DNA of 64,000 nucleotides from a candidate division LCP-89 bacterium B3_LCP (GTDB taxonomy: Bacteria > Electryoneota > B3-LCP), in assembly GCA_005223185.1 (NCBI GenBank), contig NJBN01000002.1:496001-560000 (forward strand), written 5' to 3'. Positions 3,617 to 48,921 of the stretch are shown in pieces. Both the position numbers and the translations under genes were made by a program. Within the stretch, counting starts at the first letter, position 1; every line of letters starts with the position of its first letter. The notes beneath the pieces are model-generated. The model searched no databases. It was not told where the DNA came from and saw only the letters and a program-made list of their open reading frames with translations.

Positions 3617-5062
3617 ATGATTCAAACACTTAGACAGGACTTGCGTCAACGGCTGGAAATGAGTATCCAGCCGCTGCAGATACTCCGCTCCGAACTTATC
3701 CAGCTTCCACTGCTTGAATTGGAATTGCGCATCAATTCCGAATTGGAAGAGAACCCTTTTCTTGATGAAGCAGAAGCTCCTGAAGAGGAGAACCCTGAAG
3801 AAACAGAGGAGATCCCTGTTCCCAAGACGGCGGAAGAACTTGATGAGGAGGACGGTGAAGAACTTCCTGCTAAAACGGAAGCTAAAGAAGTTGACTGGGA
3901 AGCTATACTGAATGATGAGGATTTTTACGAATATCGTCCACGTTCACTACCATCGTCAGTAGAGGTGCATGAAATCCCTCGCGCCGCGACTCTATCTATG
4001 AATGATCACATTCGTACACAACTACGGACCGACAGGTTAATCGGCAATTTTGTTGAAGTTGGTGAATATATCTTAGGAAGTCTGACTCCGGATGGGTATT
4101 TGGATATGTCTGTTGAAGAGATATCGGCTGACATCCGCATCAGGCCTGAAATAATAGAAGCGGTCATAAAACGAATCCAAACTTACGATCCGCCCGGCAT
4201 AGCAGCACGCAGTTTGCAGGAATGCTTGATTATCCAGTTGGAAGCTCAGGACAATCCCGATCCAAACGCATTGCGCATGCTGAAGGAATGTTTCAAAGAG
4301 TTCACCAACAAGAAATATGAGATCATAGCCAAGAAACTGGAAGTTACCTTAGAAGAGGTTAAGAAAGCTTATGAAATAGTAACGAAACTGAATCCCAAAC
4401 CGGGGGAAGGGTTGTTTGATGAGAAACAAAACTACATCGTTCCTGATCTGATCGTTAAACAGATAGGTGATGATTTTGAGATATTTATCAACGATGGCAG
4501 CATTCCCAATTTCTATGTTAACACCGAATATCGTAATATGGTGTTAGCCAAGAAAAAGGTGGATAAAAAAACGCGAGAATTCGTTCACCGCAAGCTGGAA
4601 TCAGCCAGATGGTTCATAAATGCGATCCACCAACGCCGTTCGACCATGCTGCGCACCATGCGTGCTATTGTGAAAAAGCAGGAAGATTTTTTCCGCTTCG
4701 GCAAGGAGCATCTCCGCCCCATGATCCTGCAGGATATCGCCGATGACATTGAGATGGATATCGCCACCATTTCCAGAGTTACCAATGGAAAATATGTGCA
4801 GACAGATTTCGGGGTTATTGAATTAAAATACTTCTTTAGCCAGCGCATGGAGACCAATGAGGGTGAGGACGTCTCCACGAGGATTATAAAATCCAAACTC
4901 AGAGAAATTGTTGATAAAGAGAACAAAGCCAGCCCCTGGTCGGATGAGAAATTGGCAGAGCTGTTATCACAGGAAGGCTACACCATAGCCCGCCGCACAG
5001 TACAGAAATATCGCGAACAACTGAGCATACCGGTAAAAAGGCTGAGAAGGGAAATAGTGTAA
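3617..5062 (+). CDS. rpoN: RNA polymerase sigma-54 factor
   Basis: 481 residues with the whole sigma-54 layout: a Gln/Leu-rich region I (LRQRLEMSIQPLQILRSELI) that contacts activators, a strongly acidic region II (about 48-95), the core-binding domain, a helix-turn-helix (DIADDIEMDIATISRVTNGK) and the C-terminal RpoN box ARRTVQKYRE. It directs RNA polymerase to -24/-12 promoters and needs an AAA+ activator; one such activator is encoded at 29419-30798. The lptB-rpoN neighbourhood is conserved widely, though the hpf gene that often follows is replaced by a thioredoxin-like gene. I found no convincing -24/-12 promoter in the window. Confidence 0.96.
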   Translation: MIQTLRQDLRQRLEMSIQPLQILRSELIQLPLLELELRINSELEENPFLDEAEAPEEENPEETEEIPVPKTAEELDEEDGEELPAKTEAKEVDWEAILNDEDFYEYRPRSLPSSVEVHEIPRAATLSMNDHIRTQLRTDRLIGNFVEVGEYILGSLTPDGYLDMSVEEISADIRIRPEIIEAVIKRIQTYDPPGIAARSLQECLIIQLEAQDNPDPNALRMLKECFKEFTNKKYEIIAKKLEVTLEEVKKAYEIVTKLNPKPGEGLFDEKQNYIVPDLIVKQIGDDFEIFINDGSIPNFYVNTEYRNMVLAKKKVDKKTREFVHRKLESARWFINAIHQRRSTMLRTMRAIVKKQEDFFRFGKEHLRPMILQDIADDIEMDIATISRVTNGKYVQTDFGVIELKYFFSQRMETNEGEDVSTRIIKSKLREIVDKENKASPWSDEKLAELLSQEGYTIARRTVQKYREQLSIPVKRLRREIV

Positions 5063-5079
5063 CAACTTTTGGAGATAGA

Positions 5080-5628
5080 ATGGCACTCGTTGATGGAACC
5101 AAAATAGCAATAGGGACGCCCTGTCCTGATTTTGATCTCCCCGCGGTTGATGGGAATCGGTATAAATTATCAGATTTCACCGACAAGGACGTATTGATTG
5201 TGATCTTCACCTGCAATCACTGCCCGTATGCGGTTGCGGTGGAAGACCGGATCATCCAATTGCGCCAGGATTTAGAAGGATATAGCGCTCAGATGGTGGG
5301 TATCTGTTCCAATGACCCCAATTACGTGCCTCAGGATTCCTTCGACAACCTGAGCAAGCGATGGGAACAGAAGGGCTACGGCTTTCCCTACCTGCATGAT
5401 CTGGAACAAACTGTAGCGAAAGATTTCGGCGCCGCTTGTACGCCTGAATTCTTCGTGTATGGTCCCGATCGCAAGCTGGCTTATCACGGCAGACTTGATG
5501 ATAATTGGGAGAATCCCCGTAAAGTAACGCGTCGTGAGTTAAAAGAGGCGGTGGATCTCTTACTTGATGGCAAACCTGTCGATTTTAAGCAGATGCCCTC
5601 AATGGGTTGTTCGATAAAATGGCGTTAA
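5080..5628 (+). CDS. Thioredoxin-fold (AhpC/TSA-like) protein
   Basis: 182 residues with a peroxiredoxin/thioredoxin fold: DFDLPAVDG near the N-terminus, VIFTCNHCPYA with the CxxC pair at Cys45 and Cys48, and a later ACTPEFFVYG segment that supplies the cis-proline region. This matches the family of thioredoxin-like proteins carrying a CNHCPY motif, mostly annotated only as redoxin. No signal peptide is visible, so it is likely cytoplasmic. It follows rpoN by 17 bases, suggesting co-transcription. The substrate is unknown; thiol-disulfide exchange or peroxide reduction are both possible. Confidence 0.85.
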   Translation: MALVDGTKIAIGTPCPDFDLPAVDGNRYKLSDFTDKDVLIVIFTCNHCPYAVAVEDRIIQLRQDLEGYSAQMVGICSNDPNYVPQDSFDNLSKRWEQKGYGFPYLHDLEQTVAKDFGAACTPEFFVYGPDRKLAYHGRLDDNWENPRKVTRRELKEAVDLLLDGKPVDFKQMPSMGCSIKWR

Positions 5629-5673
5629 CTCCAATTCGGTGCATGGCAAAGCCTGATTGACGGGAATATACGC

Positions 5674-7089
5674 ATGGGCAACACACTGGAACGACTGTTC
5701 CACCTGGTGGAAAACGGCACCAACGTCAGAACGGAAATAATGGCGGGCGTGACCACGTTCATGACCATGTCTTACATTATTTTCGTTCAACCTGCCGTGC
5801 TTTCGCAAGCAGGCATGGACTTCGACGCGGTAATGATTGCCACCTGTCTTTCCGCCGCCGCAGCGACATTCATTATGGGGCTGCTGGCTAATTATCCCAT
5901 TGCTTTAGCTCCCGGCATGGGGCAGAACTTCTTCTTCACTTTCACGGTTGTACTTGCGGCTGGCGTTGCCTGGGAAACGGCTCTGGGGATTGTATTTATC
6001 TCCGGGATAATCTTCATGATCCTCAACCTCTTCCGTCTGAGGCAGGCTCTGCTGGATGCCATTCCATCATCACTGAAGCATTCAATCGCCGCCGGAATCG
6101 GTTTCTTCATCGCTTTCATCGGACTTGCAGACGCTGGCATTATCGTGCGGAATAACGACCCCCTTGTTAGTGCAGTTTTCGCGGGGGATCTTTCGCCGGA
6201 GGGTCTTACCGGAAGACTGAAAATATGGGAGTATGCTACCGGTGCATTAAGGTTAGGTGATCTATCACATCCCGCTGCGCTGTTGACCCTCTTCGGTTTT
6301 GGAGTTATCCTGCTACTACTGGTGAGGCGTATTAAGGGCGCCATCCTGCTGGGAATCTTGTTTACCTTTCTGCTGGCACTAATCACCGGTCAGGTGAAAT
6401 GGGAGGGTGTTGCTTCAATGCCGCCTTCGATAGCTCCTACGTTTTTCAAGTTAGATCTTGTCGGAGTCTTCCGCTGGGAATTGATTCCCATCGTGTTAGT
6501 TTTCTTCTTCACTGATTTTTTCGATACCATCGGCACTTTAATTGGTGTTGGCGACCGCGCTGGATTTATAAAAAATGGCAAACTTCCCCGAGCGTCCCGG
6601 GCGCTGTGGGCGGATGCAACCGGAACTGTCGCAGGTGCGTTTCTGGGTACATCGACGGTAACCAGTTATATCGAATCGGCAGCAGGCGTTGAAGAAGGAG
6701 GCAGAACCGGACTTACAGCAGTAACGACAGGTATGCTTTTCCTCTTGGCGATCTTTTTTGCACCGCTGGTGAGGATGATCGGCGGAGGCGTCGAAGCGTC
6801 AGAAGGGACCATGCTCATCTTATATCCCATAACTGCGCCAGCATTGATTGTAGTCGGCTGCCTGATGGTTCAGACTGTAGCCAAAATTAACTGGTCCGAT
6901 CTTTCAGAAGCCATACCAGCTTTCTTAGTTATAATCGGAATGCCGCTGACCTATTCCATTTCAGATGGTCTGGCGTTCGGTTTTGTGAGTTATTCCATTC
7001 TTTCCATATTCGCAGGACGCTGGCGGAACACCAGTTGGTTGGTGCATGCATTAGCTTTGGTTTTTGCATTCCGATACATCTTTCTCTAA
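5674..7089 (+). CDS. NCS2 family purine permease (AzgA/PbuG-like)
   Basis: 471 residues, nearly all hydrophobic with about 12-14 membrane helices. ANYPIALAPGMGQNFFFTFT and FFTDFFDTIGTLIGVGDRAG are the hallmark segments of the AzgA-like branch of the NCS2 (nucleobase:cation symporter 2) family, which imports adenine, guanine or hypoxanthine by proton symport. An N-terminal GVTTFMTMSYIIFVQP motif is also family-typical. It sits alone between a redox protein and a Fic gene, so context does not fix the substrate. No purine riboswitch was recognised in the 45-base leader. Confidence 0.93.
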   Translation: MGNTLERLFHLVENGTNVRTEIMAGVTTFMTMSYIIFVQPAVLSQAGMDFDAVMIATCLSAAAATFIMGLLANYPIALAPGMGQNFFFTFTVVLAAGVAWETALGIVFISGIIFMILNLFRLRQALLDAIPSSLKHSIAAGIGFFIAFIGLADAGIIVRNNDPLVSAVFAGDLSPEGLTGRLKIWEYATGALRLGDLSHPAALLTLFGFGVILLLLVRRIKGAILLGILFTFLLALITGQVKWEGVASMPPSIAPTFFKLDLVGVFRWELIPIVLVFFFTDFFDTIGTLIGVGDRAGFIKNGKLPRASRALWADATGTVAGAFLGTSTVTSYIESAAGVEEGGRTGLTAVTTGMLFLLAIFFAPLVRMIGGGVEASEGTMLILYPITAPALIVVGCLMVQTVAKINWSDLSEAIPAFLVIIGMPLTYSISDGLAFGFVSYSILSIFAGRWRNTSWLVHALALVFAFRYIFL

Positions 7090-43738: not shown

Positions 43739-43781
43739 TTCAGGTTTATTTTTTGGTGATGCTGATTTTTCGTGCTGGGCT

Positions 43782-43826
43782 GATGTCAGATGTGGCGGTC
43801 AGAATGTGGCGGACAGATTTGGACGA
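43782..43826 (-). repeat. Tandem 13-14 base units, copy A
   Basis: On the minus strand CCAAATCTGTCCGCCACATT then CTGACCGCCACATCTGAC: units close to CCGCCACATCTGA repeat about three times. A related tract with CCGACAAATCTG units lies at 49349-49393, also downstream of an orphan promoter. Confidence 0.5.
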
Positions 43827-43940
43827 CTTTTTTGTCAGTGTGTAGAGCGGGTGGTTTTACAGGGTATTTTACAGGGTATTTTAGTGAGTGTGGGGACGGA
43901 TAAAAGGAATTGAGTGTTGTATATAAAGGGCTATATATAT

Positions 43941-43969
43941 AATATACGATACAATTCTCGAAAAGTCAA
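43941..43969 (-). promoter_or_regulatory. Orphan consensus promoter A
   Basis: On the minus strand TTGACT (43964-43969), 17 bases, then TATATT (43941-43946), with C before the first box and G before the second, as good as any promoter in the window. It reads into a gene-free stretch that ends at engB, whose gene is on the other strand, so an untranslated RNA is possible. Confidence 0.6.
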
Positions 43970-44061
43970 GGGGAGAGAGGGGGAATTGGGAACGAACCAG
44001 AACATCAAGCTATCCCGGCTACCCGCGAGGTGAGAATTTTTGTGTTTTTTATTATTTTAGC

Positions 44062-44090
44062 TTGACAAAGTGATTGCTTCTTGGTATATT
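44062..44090 (+). promoter_or_regulatory. Promoter of the accessory cassette
   Basis: TTGACA (44062-44067), exactly 17 bases, then TATATT (44085-44090), with C before the first box and G before the second. It starts a leader of roughly 140 bases before the first long cassette gene. Together with the terminator at 47142-47170 it marks a complete transcription unit. Confidence 0.78.
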
Positions 44091-44184
44091 ATGGTAAATT
44101 GTGGGATCAGTCAGGTGCTGAGAAGTGATAGTATAAGAATAGCCGACAAGGTATACCTACTATTCGCATAAGTGGGGACAGGAA

Positions 44185-44229
44185 ATGAAGCCGATGTGGT
44201 GTGATAAATGCCAAATTATCAATACTTAG
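44185..44229 (+). CDS. Possible 14-residue leader peptide with CxxC
   Basis: A short open frame in the cassette leader: MKPMWCDKCQIINT, with GGGGACAGGAA directly upstream as a ribosome site and the stop nine bases before the first cassette gene. The WCDKC pair resembles a metal or redox site. It may be a leader peptide, or chance. No homologue could be looked up. Confidence 0.3.
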   Translation: MKPMWCDKCQIINT

Positions 44230-44238
44230 GTTTATAAA

Positions 44239-44799
44239 ATGATCTCAAAGACAAGCATACGATCTTCCGGACCAATCGAAAATGGGCTTGATATAGTACT
44301 GACACTTCTCTATGCGCCAGGTGGCAGCGGACAAAAGTGCGAGCCAGTGCGAGGTATTACTCGTTTGCAGAAACTGTTGTTCTTGCTATGGAAGGAAGGT
44401 GCCTTTTATGAAGACATTCCAAACCTTTACAATTTTAAAGCTTACGACTTTGGACCATGCTTGGATGATATATATGATGACCTCGATTTTGCCGAAGACA
44501 TCGGGCTAATTTATGTTAGCGAAGTGCCTTCTGGCAACGAGTATGAGGGTGGCGACGAGGATGCGTTTCTGGAGGATTTTGGTTTTAACTTGGTCAAGCG
44601 ATCAACGCGAAGAGATTTCGAACTTACAGAAGCAGGGCGGGAGGCTGCAAGAGATATCTACGAAAATCTCGACACCGAACGGTGTCAACGACTTGAACAG
44701 ATTAAGCGCAGGTTTAATTTCATGCCGTTCTTCGACCTGCTGAGGTACGTGTACCGTAAATATCCTGTCTTTGCAAAAAAATCGGTTCTTTCCCTATGA
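44239..44799 (+). CDS. YwgA/SocA-like (DUF4065-type) protein, cassette gene 1
   Basis: 186 residues. GITRLQKLLFLLWKEGAFYE then FKAYDFGPCLDDIYDDLDFA resembles the RLQKL...FxxYxFGP layout of YwgA and of the SocA/PanA (DUF4065) antitoxin domain, followed by DFELTEAGREAARDIYENL, a typical end of that fold. The middle is acidic (VPSGNEYEGGDEDAFLEDFG). These proteins often act as regulators or chaperones in toxin-antitoxin and defence loci. Its stop overlaps the next ATG by four bases (ATGA). Distant similarity only; no search was possible. Confidence 0.55.
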   Translation: MISKTSIRSSGPIENGLDIVLTLLYAPGGSGQKCEPVRGITRLQKLLFLLWKEGAFYEDIPNLYNFKAYDFGPCLDDIYDDLDFAEDIGLIYVSEVPSGNEYEGGDEDAFLEDFGFNLVKRSTRRDFELTEAGREAARDIYENLDTERCQRLEQIKRRFNFMPFFDLLRYVYRKYPVFAKKSVLSL

Positions 44800-45356
44800 A
44801 CGAATTTATAATCGACAATAAGGAAGTTCTATCGATTTGCACCTCACTGGCAATAATGTTACTATCTTTGGCCTTCGGTGGGATTCTCGCATGGCGCCAC
44901 AAGATATGCCTAGAATATGAGAGCCAGAAGAATGTTGCTATTAGCATTCTCAACGACAGGTTTGTGCAACGTACAAGTGTCCACTATTCAGACATCGAGG
45001 AAGAACGGGAGCGAGATAAAACCTCCATTGAAGAGATCTACAAGCGACCAGGGCAGCAACAGCTCGTACGAGAACTTGGAAGGGATCTTGAGGATCAAAA
45101 CCGTGTGAAGCGTTACTTTCGTTGGCTTGTTAAAGTTAGCGGAGCTTCGTTCGGATTTCTCTGGGCTGCAATAATATTGATAGTGGTTGCAGTTGCACTT
45201 CTTTGGGCTGAATCACCCTTTGCAGTGTGGGTAATATGGTTACTTCTTCTAGGGACACTGCTGGTTGGATTTTTCTCGTCTATCACAGCAATGTGGATGC
45301 TCGACGGCCGATTCTTTAAGCTGGTTCACCGCGTTATTGAACCTGAGGGGGAATGA
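44796..45356 (+). CDS. Three-helix membrane protein, cassette gene 2
   Basis: 186 residues. One N-terminal membrane helix (VLSICTSLAIMLLSLAFGGI), a charged cytoplasmic middle rich in Glu, Arg and Gln (EEERERDKTSIEEIYKRPGQ), and two C-terminal helices (AAIILIVVAVALLWAES and IWLLLLGTLLVGFFSSITAM). No known domain recognised. Start codon overlaps the previous stop, so translation is coupled. In defence operons such small membrane proteins often act as effectors, but that is inference. Confidence 0.6.
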   Translation: MNEFIIDNKEVLSICTSLAIMLLSLAFGGILAWRHKICLEYESQKNVAISILNDRFVQRTSVHYSDIEEERERDKTSIEEIYKRPGQQQLVRELGRDLEDQNRVKRYFRWLVKVSGASFGFLWAAIILIVVAVALLWAESPFAVWVIWLLLLGTLLVGFFSSITAMWMLDGRFFKLVHRVIEPEGE

Positions 45357-45359
45357 GGC

Positions 45360-45875
45360 ATGCCAAGAAAGCCATTAAAGGTGGTATTTAGCAGAGAAGT
45401 GGATATGTACTTGCCGCTGCTTAAGCTCTTTTCGAGTGTCGGACTGACTGTTGGGGAAGTACCATTTTTTGGAAAGCGAATCGATCTGCTTTTCGGAACA
45501 CCATCGCTATTGAGCCTATATGCAGTTGAGACAAAATTGCTTGACTGGCGGAGCGCCTTCAAGCAAGCCGCTCTGAATCAGCTCGCTGTTCAGCGGTCGT
45601 ACATCGCTGTTCCAAGGAGACTCGCGACACGTCTCGCGGAGCAAGAAGAGGATCTGTTTAAAAAATATGATGTTGGCCTAATAGGAGTTGCCGAGTCCGC
45701 TAAAGTCCTTATTCCGCCTAATAAAAACGGATGTTTCAGCCCACGCCATTATCGCGTTCTCAAAGAGACGTTGAAAAGAACGCAACACAAGAAATCCAGC
45801 AAAATAGGAGTCGTAGCTGATGCCATTGCCGATCGCTCCAAAGCCCTGGTCGTTCTACAGGCTGGGACCGACTAA
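45360..45875 (+). CDS. PD-(D/E)XK nuclease-like protein, cassette gene 3
   Basis: 171 residues. FFGKRIDLLFGTPS with Asp42, then LYAVETKLLDWRSAFKQA with Glu57-x-Lys59, matches the D-(x)n-E-x-K core of restriction-type nucleases; the following QA...NQLAVQRSYIAVP strand is also typical. The C-terminal third (HYRVLKETLKRTQHKKSS) is basic. GAGG precedes the ATG at 45360. Probably a DNA or RNA nuclease; the target is unknown. Start of the next gene overlaps by 56 bases. Confidence 0.6.
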   Translation: MPRKPLKVVFSREVDMYLPLLKLFSSVGLTVGEVPFFGKRIDLLFGTPSLLSLYAVETKLLDWRSAFKQAALNQLAVQRSYIAVPRRLATRLAEQEEDLFKKYDVGLIGVAESAKVLIPPNKNGCFSPRHYRVLKETLKRTQHKKSSKIGVVADAIADRSKALVVLQAGTD

Positions 45876-47109
45876 GGAAAAGGAACTTTTTAAGCGTCAT
45901 CGGGACACATATGATGGTGTGGTAATTCCTGCACACATTGCGTCTTACTATTCCACCTTTTGCGCTGAGTTCGTTGGTTCACTTCGTAAACCCTACTTTA
46001 TCGATCCAATGACGTACATCTTTTCCAACGATCCGTCGCACCTCAAACGATTTGTAAAGGTCAAGGGTACGGGCCGCACAGAGCGGGACGGAGTGGGGCG
46101 CAAGAAGAAGGGCGACATTAAGCGTTCCTACTCAAAGCTGATCGATGACGTATACCAAGGGATAGTCAAAGCGGCGGTCGCTAATGACCGGTCGCTAGTG
46201 CCGGCCGACTTCACTGATGCCTCCATGAGCCAATTCGTCCAAAACGTGCTGGACTTCCAAAGAACAAGGCTGGTAGCTATCCCTGACAAATACAAGAAGT
46301 ATGAGAAATATGTCCAGAAAGCGGATAAGCCAATGAGTATATCGGGTAACCTGCCCATGTGTCTTGTCGCGCCATACTTCCCAACGGCGACTTTGCACTC
46401 GCGAGGTTGGCATTCAACCAATCTTCAGCTGGTCCGGCAGGCCAAGGCGATGGCCGGCGGACTCCCCATCTTCGCTATGATCCTTGCCAGTCCCCATGTA
46501 CTGGACAAAGACGTGAGGCAGATCGCCGCCGATTATATAGCCACCGAAGTGGACGGATTCCTCTTGTGGCCGGATGGCTTCTCAAGCGACCAAGACCCGG
46601 CCGCGCTCCGCGTCGTCTTCAACGCGGTTGATGAACTTAGCAGAAATGGCAAGCCGGTCATCCTTATGTACGGCGATGCGTTTTCGCTCGTACTGCACTA
46701 TGCGGGCTTATCCGGCTTCGCTTGTGGAATCTGTTACGGGGAACACAAGCTATCAACCCTGGATATGGATGTAGAAGGAGCGATTCCGCCACGTTATTAC
46801 GTGCGAAGGCTCAAGAAGAAGTACGTTATCGATCCCGAGGCGATGCGTATAAGTATCGAACAGTATCCTGACCTTGTGTGTAACTGCGCTATCTGCCAGC
46901 GCAAGCCTGATCCCGCGACCTTGGACGATACCGATTCTCGTGAGCATTTTATGTTGGTTCGATCCGCTGAGATTAACGAGCTCCGCGACGGCCTCTCACA
47001 GGCGGAATTTGCTGCAGCTCTGGACGAAGCATATCAACTTCACTGCAATGACCCACTCCTCCAGCCAATTACTCGCCTACGAAATTGGGTCTCCTTGTTG
47101 TCCTCCTGA
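45820..47109 (+). CDS. TGT-superfamily-like zinc protein, cassette gene 4
   Basis: 429 residues, larger than the rest of the cassette. Two features match tRNA-guanine transglycosylase: GFACGICYGEHK (about 300-311), like the GFAIGGLAVGEPK loop of E. coli Tgt, and CNCAIC (354-359) with His376, like its CxCxxC...H zinc site. The segment between them is about 45 residues instead of about 80, and the MPTR nucleophile stretch is not recognisable. N-terminal YDGVVIPAHI and FIDPMTYIF belong to an (alpha/beta) barrel. AGGAG lies nine bases before the ATG. A DpdA-like 7-deazapurine enzyme is one possibility, not shown. Confidence 0.6.
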   Translation: MPLPIAPKPWSFYRLGPTKEKELFKRHRDTYDGVVIPAHIASYYSTFCAEFVGSLRKPYFIDPMTYIFSNDPSHLKRFVKVKGTGRTERDGVGRKKKGDIKRSYSKLIDDVYQGIVKAAVANDRSLVPADFTDASMSQFVQNVLDFQRTRLVAIPDKYKKYEKYVQKADKPMSISGNLPMCLVAPYFPTATLHSRGWHSTNLQLVRQAKAMAGGLPIFAMILASPHVLDKDVRQIAADYIATEVDGFLLWPDGFSSDQDPAALRVVFNAVDELSRNGKPVILMYGDAFSLVLHYAGLSGFACGICYGEHKLSTLDMDVEGAIPPRYYVRRLKKKYVIDPEAMRISIEQYPDLVCNCAICQRKPDPATLDDTDSREHFMLVRSAEINELRDGLSQAEFAAALDEAYQLHCNDPLLQPITRLRNWVSLLSS

Positions 47110-47141
47110 TTCGCTAACCATGCGGGTACAATTTAAAAGTG

Positions 47142-47170
47142 CTGTCAGACGCCCTCGTCTGACAGTTTTT
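47142..47170 (+). terminator. Intrinsic terminator of the accessory cassette
   Basis: CTGTCAGACG-CCCT-CGTCTGACAG forms a perfect 10-base stem with a four-base loop and is followed directly by TTTTT. It lies 33 bases after the last cassette gene. Confidence 0.9.
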
Positions 47171-47198
47171 CTGGATTCCGGGTCTTCGTCCGGAATGA
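47171..47198 (-). repeat. GTCATTCC/GGAATCCAG hairpin repeat, copy 1
   Basis: ATTCCGG-GTCTTCG-TCCGGAAT hairpin with the outer CTGG / GAT ends of the family. It sits directly against the cassette terminator. Confidence 0.55.
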
Positions 47199-47265
47199 TA
47201 ATTCCTGTTCCCACCTAAATTCCAAATTCTGCATTCTCCATTCAAAATTCTACATTCCCTATAGC

Positions 47266-48876
47266 CTATTCCCCTCCAATCGGATTCCACTCGCCGATAT
47301 GTTCAGTATATATCTTGCACTTACCCCTGGTTACCCACTTCTCATCCGAATTGTACGTCCATCCTAAGTACTCGGAATTTCCTCCGCCTCTGGTGGTTAT
47401 TATGTAGGTGTTGGTAAGATGTCCGATGGAATCTGCCTGATGTTCAGGTGAAGCTGAATCTCCTCTGGACGCATCCACAGGTATCCAACCGTAATTGGGC
47501 AGGTAAACTTCCGCCCAGCGGTGGAAGACGTCATCTAAGCTGGCATCATCACCACGAATGGCAATTGATCCCGCATAACGCGCCGGCAATCCTGCTGCCC
47601 GGCATATAGCGATGAACACGAACGTGTATTCGGAACAGGAACCGTTACCTCTCTCCAATACAGCCGGAGCCGTATTCCAACCACCGGACATTTCATAGTA
47701 TATGTTATCGATCACATAGTTGAAAATCCTGCGCATTCTCCAGTAGGGATTGGTTTCATCACCTACAGCTTCCGTTACAGCTTTTTGTATGGTGGGGTGA
47801 TCAAGGGAGAATTTATCATCATCTTCTAAGTACTCCTTGCGGATATCGGCGGGAATATCATCCAGTGCCCCCACCTTATCGGGAAAGATGAACCAGCGGG
47901 TATCCCATATCTCCGCTTCCACAGTCATGGATACCTTGTTTATGGTACCTGCCGGGCTGTCCGTAAAGTGATAATGAGCTACCTTTTGCCCCCACCGGTC
48001 TTTGAGAAAACCGGTCGGTTCAGGTGAAAACACTGGTTTCCCAAGTAGTTCCTGATTCGGCAGATTCTCCGGAATGGCGATGTAAACGTCCAGACTTTCC
48101 ATTATACCCGGTCCGTAATTGCGCACTTCATGAGTGAACTCAACGCGCTGTTTCTTTCCTTCTTTTCTGATAAAGGCGTCGTCACCACCAACACTTAAGC
48201 AATATATTGAATCAGATTGAAAGTCGGCATTCCAGAGTTTTTCCCCATCCCAGGCTAAGCCGTACGCGTACGGCGCCGGTGCATCGAACATGGCGATCAC
48301 TTCACCGCCAGTGGGATTGACTAAGTAGATCTTGTCACTGACCCTGTCTGCTACCCAAAGGTATTTGCCATCGAACGCCAACCCCTGTGGATAGCGCGCA
48401 GGCGATGGAAATGAATTGATCGTGGTGCCGTCTTCCGGATCGATCTGGTGAATTTCACGCGCCTTACGGCTAGCCACCCAGATATATTTACCATCCCAGG
48501 CCAGTCCAGTAGGCTTTTCCACCGGTGACTCCAGCCGATGAGTTACCAATGAAGTTTTAGGTATAATCCGATACAGCAATTCCTCTTCACCGCAGACACA
48601 CCATAATCCTTCGCCATCGAAGGCGAGACCCAGCGGTCTGAAGGTCGGAGCTGCGATTTTATCAGTAACCGTCCCGTCCGTTCTATCTATCGCGTAGAGC
48701 GTGTCCGTTTTCAGATCCGAAACCCAGAGACGCTTACCATCCCAAGATAAGCCCGTCGGACAGGTTCCCGGTGCAGGGAATGCTGCCGTTACATCACCAA
48801 CGGCGGCAAGAGCTGCTGCGAAAGCGAATTGAATGACTATACATAGACAAATGAAAAGCATCCTAAGATAATTCAT
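47266..48876 (-). CDS. Secreted protein with NHL-like propeller and transglutaminase domain
   Basis: From ATG 48876 the protein has 536 residues with a signal peptide (LFICLCIVIQFAFAAALA). About 230 residues of repeated WDGKRLWVSD / FDGKYLWVAD units form a beta-propeller of the NHL/SMP-30 type. Then come a linker and a transglutaminase-like domain with nucleophile Cys in GNGSCSEYTFVFIAICRAAG, His in FHRWAEVYLP and Asp in WIPVDASRG. It likely acts in the periplasm or outside. ATG 48894 is also possible, but AGAAGG before 48876 and the compact signal peptide favour the later one. Confidence 0.82.
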   Translation of the reverse strand: MNYLRMLFICLCIVIQFAFAAALAAVGDVTAAFPAPGTCPTGLSWDGKRLWVSDLKTDTLYAIDRTDGTVTDKIAAPTFRPLGLAFDGEGLWCVCGEEELLYRIIPKTSLVTHRLESPVEKPTGLAWDGKYIWVASRKAREIHQIDPEDGTTINSFPSPARYPQGLAFDGKYLWVADRVSDKIYLVNPTGGEVIAMFDAPAPYAYGLAWDGEKLWNADFQSDSIYCLSVGGDDAFIRKEGKKQRVEFTHEVRNYGPGIMESLDVYIAIPENLPNQELLGKPVFSPEPTGFLKDRWGQKVAHYHFTDSPAGTINKVSMTVEAEIWDTRWFIFPDKVGALDDIPADIRKEYLEDDDKFSLDHPTIQKAVTEAVGDETNPYWRMRRIFNYVIDNIYYEMSGGWNTAPAVLERGNGSCSEYTFVFIAICRAAGLPARYAGSIAIRGDDASLDDVFHRWAEVYLPNYGWIPVDASRGDSASPEHQADSIGHLTNTYIITTRGGGNSEYLGWTYNSDEKWVTRGKCKIYTEHIGEWNPIGGE

Positions 48877-48921
48877 GGTTTTAGCCCTTCTCATACATCT
48901 TGATTAGATCGCATTTGTGAT

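Follow-up and report, generated by a model that had tools for sequence, protein, structure and literature searches.

The tRNA-guanine transglycosylase (TGT) family is best known for tRNA modification. Panacea proteins neutralise toxins, membrane-depolarising ones included, and have been proposed to act as sensors; the PanAT survey retained loci of two or three genes and discarded longer operons (PMC8832971, PMC10440598). Here we describe a cassette of four genes, A to D, that sets a Panacea-like protein (A) beside a predicted membrane protein (B), a PD-(D/E)XK nuclease-like protein (C) and a protein with a predicted TGT fold (D). It lies in a 64,000-nt stretch of DNA, hereafter the window, from candidate division LCP-89 bacterium B3_LCP (contig NJBN01000002.1, positions 496,001 to 560,000), and a first-pass annotation made from the letters alone had singled it out as a candidate undescribed system. 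The set is one form of a widespread mobile cassette, not previously described in the sources searched, in which A, C and D recur with one interchangeable gene. This division into core and interchangeable gene is drawn from sequence and structure prediction, from which we also infer the effector, restraint and sensing roles discussed below.

Recurrence and partner exchange

The cassette is rare among the relatives of its host and is found far beyond them. D occurs in 3 of 39 genomes of the window's phylum, the window's own included, the others being Candidatus Tariuqbacter and Candidatus Hatepunaea (both Candidatus Electryoneota). A D profile was positive in five of 386 related genomes, and an independent C profile applied to the same 386 had its strong matches (E < 1e-27) in the same five genomes and no others, each with an intact D, at the same loci. 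An alignment-based scan for D of 84,980 species genomes yielded 28 loci, distributed over Electryoneota, Planctomycetota, Bacteroidota, Bacillota, Patescibacteria (Paceibacterota/Parcubacteria), Pseudomonadota and Acidobacteriota. Although these loci were chosen by D alone, A, C and D are co-directional and in constant order in 25 of them. The remaining three comprise one at a contig end (L038) and two that appear degraded: in L048 (5595-6504), from a metagenome-assembled genome (MAG) of Opitutae, just C and a truncated D are left, and in L049 (5300-6491), from Spiroplasma, D is broken up between two reading frames.

With plasmids counted in, the cassette reaches about nine phyla in two domains of life. 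Some loci come from MAGs, for which misbinning is possible, but the isolates (Moorella mulderi, contig NZ_LTBC01000003.1; Merdimonas faecis; and Caproicibacter fermentans) and the plasmids follow the same pattern. Because the genes recur in one order in unrelated genomes, the cassette stands above chance. The first-pass annotation had asked whether the four genes recur together in unrelated genomes, and they do so as the A-C-D set just described, with B exchanged for another gene in some loci; rare co-occurrence, or an order fixed within one lineage, was looked for and not seen, the order being kept over about nine phyla and on plasmids.

The exchange of B is clear-cut. In the 29 loci holding A, C and D (from the genome scan, the window and plasmids), B lies between A and C in 16, a SIR2 gene follows D in the absence of B in 12, none has both, and a single locus, Haloarcula pNG400, has neither. 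B and SIR2 are thus mutually exclusive in A-C-D loci. In the SIR2-type loci the gene directly downstream of D encodes 329-495 aa. Eight of the nine post-D genes tested match SIR2 or SIR2_2 (Pfam) at E 0.01, five of them above the Pfam cut-off, and the remainder were assigned to SIR2 by motif, a GAGFS/GAGLS-type motif being present in most copies; the PADLOC models SIR2 and Aga_SIR2 also match the post-D gene. On the D tree the distribution needs four changes between B and SIR2 (3-4 in bootstraps). Since the strongly supported branches force only one, the tree suggests, rather than shows, that the two were swapped repeatedly during evolution.

There are several signs that the cassette moves between genomes. 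First, five genomes of the same family keep the HAD phosphatase-lon-engB block with none of A-D after it, which marks the cassette as accessory. Second, the four-gene form is carried by the mobilizable Arthrobacter plasmid pSI-1, at 61825-64653 of NC_010494.1, and Haloarcula plasmids carry A-C-D. Third, two IMG/VR contigs contain the cassette, one between a repressor-like helix-turn-helix gene and a tyrosine integrase and the other beside serine recombinases; a tblastn search of D against phage genomes gave nothing useful, and there was no match at E 0.001 in a viral structure library. Finally, the D tree mixes phyla, grouping Electryoneota with Phycisphaerales and placing a Pseudomonadales copy within a mostly planctomycete clade. 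This tree does not resolve its deep branches, and with the window copy on a long branch the placement of the window's D is unsure. Wide recurrence together with absence from close relatives rules out a lineage-bound housekeeping operon.

The encoded proteins

Fold and family predictions broadly bear out the identities that the first-pass annotation had given to the four proteins, that of A at the level of its family. Pfam and NCBIfam scans of the single window proteins A-D gave nothing useful. SocA_Panacea (PF13274) is matched by 19 of 30 members of the A family (best 1.2e-7). In PADLOC the window's A, alone among its cassette proteins in giving leads, matched PDC-M19A (1.6e-6) and a type I specificity model (1.1e-5). 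For B, Kyte-Doolittle hydropathy predicts a hydrophobic segment at the N-terminus and a hairpin at the C-terminus, and this layout recurs in most homologues, which occupy the same slot although their sequences barely align.

C is, by predicted fold and motif, a putative nuclease of the PD-(D/E)XK kind. Its E-D-ExK-Q motif is intact, E13, D42, E57, K59 and Q69 being invariant across 29 members. The AlphaFold2 (AF2) model has a predicted local distance difference test score (pLDDT) of 88, with 3dnx (SPO1766) as best solved fold (E 2.4e-6), and the C profile matches 1y88 in the PDB at E 5e-4. The Pfam lead is MmcB-like, and in PADLOC one C only gave a marginal match, to PDC-S41 (6.5e-4). Longer and distant C-like (MmcB-like) proteins occur alone, without D, in many genomes (L104-L106, L108, L109, L112, L114 and L115), those of L104, L105 and L115 in conserved neighbourhoods.

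The TGT-like identity of D comes from its predicted fold and a zinc-type motif. The AF2 model (pLDDT 82; predicted template modelling score, pTM, 0.85) has TGTs as all eight of its best PDB folds (E 2e-5 to 4e-4, TM-scores 0.35-0.54), and the motif C354-x-C356-xx-C359...H376 is invariant in 26 D members; the D homologue of the Arthrobacter plasmid has lost the cysteines of this motif. Family searches did not recover the relationship: none of the 26 members matches PF01702 at E 0.1, nor did any give a Pfam match of note, the sequence profile of D has no significant match in the PDB, and its profile comparison with real TGTs reached E 0.05 with a probability of 1%. A PF01702 search of the host genome found a canonical TGT elsewhere and did not find D. 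With none of the 26 matching that model, canonical TGT membership of D was rejected.

Residues of note in D besides the zinc motif are D62-P63, which is invariant, E308 and Y327. D62 is invariant within IDP, in a position compatible with the base-side Asp of the TGT motif DSGG[FY]Q. The nucleophile Asp of TGTs sits in FDCVxPTR. In a weak alignment, this segment corresponds to GEHR...PVGGGIP in D, which has no Asp at the site, and the base-exchange chemistry of D may therefore be absent or different.

Genes resembling C and D also occur in other arrangements. In a third, more distant architecture a C-like gene with an inserted helix-turn-helix, a Ser/Thr kinase gene and a D-like gene lie side by side (Table 1), and on Priestia megaterium plasmid p6_CACC119 (L007) one gene (4032-6065) joins a Ser/Thr kinase to a D-like domain, with a C-like gene (6030-6701) convergent to it. 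Because C-D-like genes persist with a kinase and without Panacea, the C-D pair is the most constant part of the system. A two-gene C-D locus without Panacea (L021, 3933-5832) lies two genes from a DNA methyltransferase-like gene, in a genome that also holds L022. Stand-alone D-like genes on Clavibacter pCM2 (L008, 4917-6146) and Gordonia pGBRO01 (L009, 4857-6065) adjoin a toxin-antitoxin pair of the RES/Xre-MbcA type.

Locus layout and boundary signals

The positions of the features are collected in Table 1. The four open reading frames are co-directional and closely packed, with a 4-nt overlap of A and B, a 3-nt gap between B and C and a 56-nt overlap of C and D; genes, junctions, promoter and terminator all lie as the first-pass annotation had them. 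Promoter-like sites in the region number 6, against 4.6 +/- 2.3 in shuffled sequence, and terminator-like sites 3, against 3.4 +/- 1.9, so neither count exceeds the shuffles and the two signals are credible through their position and strength rather than through number. The boundary signals are thus plausible rather than proven.

Table 1. Features of the cassette in the window, and loci of the kinase type (positions within the locus named)
Feature	Position	Strand	Description
Promoter, sigma-70-like	44062..44090	+	TTGACA-17-TATATT, TG before -10, 11/12 consensus matches; consensus match only
Gene A	44239..44799	+	186 aa, SocA/Panacea-like, antitoxin/sensor-like
Gene B	44796..45356	+	186 aa, three predicted membrane segments, putative effector
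Gene C	45360..45875	+	171 aa, PD-(D/E)XK nuclease-like
Gene D	45820..47109	+	429 aa, TGT-fold protein
Intrinsic terminator	47141..47166	+	11-pair stem, then T run
Kinase-type locus L103	2375-5086		
Kinase-type locus L111	1872-4701		
Kinase-type locus L116	1645-4553		

The cassette had also been described as set between gene-free, repeat-rich gaps. The first part stands, there being no convincing gene in either flank (43739-44238 and 47110-47265). The second does not: there are two 2.4-copy tandem repeats upstream, and the window has no similar copy elsewhere. An Rfam search gave nothing inside or beside the cassette. Outside it, the neighbouring gene at 47266-48894 on the minus strand encodes a secreted repeat protein-like product with NHL-type repeats (by eye) and a transglutaminase-like domain.

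A proposed function and its relation to known systems

We suggest that the cassette is, on balance, probably an immunity module that moves horizontally, of abortive-infection or toxin-antitoxin type, built from an A-C-D core and a swappable effector. The constant part consists of the Panacea-like A, the PD-(D/E)XK protein C and the TGT-fold protein D, and the one exchangeable gene, B or SIR2, would supply a harmful effector, acting by membrane depolarisation in the case of B and by NAD+ depletion in that of SIR2. A would hold the effector inactive, while C and D would form a nucleic-acid-facing unit in which D binds or alters a guanine-type base, either of tRNA or of an invader's DNA, while C cuts or holds nucleic acid. 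Phage infection or plasmid entry would disturb the C-D unit and lift the A-mediated block, and the freed effector would halt cell growth before the invader spreads. This proposal is consistent with the fixed A-(B)-C-D order, the exclusivity of B and SIR2, accessory and plasmid carriage, the neutralisation of toxins by Panacea and the invariant catalytic residues of C.

Several observations weigh against this proposal. The window's A alone has no match to PF13274, and its D, unlike most homologues, deviates at the near-invariant positions S69, A287, C302, K310, D317, E319, A321, K332 and K334; taken together, these suggest that the window copy of the cassette may have drifted. The sequence of B shows weak conservation, and its assignment drew in part on position and hydropathy; in the kinase-type loci the C-D pair manages without Panacea. 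The nearness to known defence genes that the first-pass annotation had proposed to check holds at some loci: AbiJ_NTD5 adjoins L032, by our own reading a DNA methylase gene and a likely restriction nuclease gene adjoin L042/L017, and among 80 neighbours there are RE_TdeIII, N6/N4 methylases and two type I specificity subunits. Such adjacency is only occasional, the neighbours being mostly housekeeping genes, and we claim no enrichment.

Plasmid and IMG/VR carriage, the 4-nt A/B overlap and the known promiscuity of Panacea towards membrane toxins are also what would be expected of an addiction module that stabilises mobile DNA, in which A neutralises B or SIR2, C and D are regulators and there is no antiviral role. 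It seems unlikely that this is the explanation, as no genes are more constant than C and D, C-D-like pairs occur also with a kinase and without Panacea, and D, the longest gene, would be superfluous for a simple toxin-antitoxin pair. A shade less likely again is base-exchange restriction-modification resembling Dpd, in which D exchanges guanine in self DNA for a 7-deazaguanine or a different base, C cuts unmarked DNA and A and B are accessory. The fold and zinc motif of D and the full catalytic set of C would suit such a system, the canonical TGT of the host means that a 7-deazaguanine route may exist, and Dpd and BREX-related systems have, or are proposed to have, TGT homologues (PMC12839542). 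However, GEHR...GGGIP replaces FDCVxPTR in D (a weak alignment), DpdB, DpdC and 7-deazaguanine genes are not in the cassette, and the exchange of B for SIR2 would be left unexplained. The first-pass annotation had offered defence or modification-restriction as alternatives; the effector exchange gives the cassette a defence-type layout, and modification-restriction is less supported than an effector-type system because D lacks the canonical nucleophile motif, 7-deazaguanine genes are missing and some loci have SIR2 in place of B.

A stress or repair operon, with C as an MmcB-like repair nuclease, D editing tRNA or DNA bases and the membrane or SIR2 gene in signalling, would fit the nearest solved fold of C (3dnx), its Pfam lead and the existence of lone C-like proteins without D. 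We regard it as improbable, since the distribution is patchy (5 of 386 genomes, and absence from five close relatives) and plasmid carriage and effector exchange are unsuited to housekeeping repair. That the genes are unrelated and adjacent by chance is barely conceivable; the promoter and terminator counts alone, no better than in shuffled sequence, would allow it, but it is refuted by the recurrence, with order and strand constant in about nine phyla from two domains of life.

If the immunity module is real, a TGT-fold protein would be a core part of an immune system that works through effectors, and not of a modification system, and Panacea would work inside a four-gene machine, giving a concrete lead to what it senses. 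It would also account for a group of hypothetical proteins encoded on plasmids and by uncultured phyla. The clean exchange of B and SIR2 makes the system directly testable, since one core should control two unrelated killing arms. More tentatively, and with distinctly less confidence, the loci might belong to a hitherto unrecognised superfamily of immune systems, found across bacteria and archaea, in which an obligate TGT-fold and PD-(D/E)XK pair reads or edits a guanine-type base as an infection signal and sets off any one of at least three exchangeable partners, namely a membrane protein with Panacea, SIR2 with Panacea, and a protein kinase.

The first-pass annotation knew of no named system with this exact set, and we likewise found none in PADLOC or in the searchable open-access literature. 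PADLOC models recognise only the Panacea-like A, SIR2 and the kinase and do not cover C-D as a system; no description of the gene set was found in the open-access literature searched (preprints excluded), absence from which is no proof of novelty.

Comparison with known families and systems brings out what is shared and what differs. D resembles bacterial TGT (PF01702) in predicted fold and in its C-x-C-xx-C...H zinc motif, and differs in lacking a PF01702 match in a host that carries a separate canonical TGT. C shares its fold and E-D-ExK-Q motif with MmcB-like, UPF0102 and Hjc nucleases but is coupled to D, whereas lone MmcB-like proteins are longer than C and distant from it. The TGT-fold protein beside a nuclease in a conflict-like operon recalls the Dpd and BREX-related TGT capture systems (PMC6884629, PMC12839542). 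The cassette is without DpdB, DpdC, HerA, PglZ and 7-deazaguanine genes and has an effector-like gene instead, and its D matches no TGT model and is without the FDCVxPTR segment; none of the four genes matches a Dpd family and the cassette has no further genes, so Dpd membership was rejected. In the B-less variant the SIR2 protein is the likely killing arm, as in SIR2 defence (short pAgo-SIR2, SIR2-HerA, Thoeris and DSR). The companions of SIR2 in those systems are Argonaute, HerA or TIR, in contrast to Panacea, PD-(D/E)XK and TGT-fold proteins here. In A and B the cassette is like PanAT (PMC8832971, PMC10440598): 19 of 30 members of the A family match Panacea, the predicted membrane protein B falls in a known PanT toxin class, and partner exchange is typical of Panacea. 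Membership among the two- and three-gene PanAT loci was rejected, the window and every B- or SIR2-type locus having four genes, and the exclusion of operons of more than three genes from that survey may be why the cassette was missed. SIR2 appears nowhere in the main text of either PanAT paper (PMC8832971, PMC10440598), and in contrast to PanAT the nuclease and the TGT-fold protein are here constant parts.

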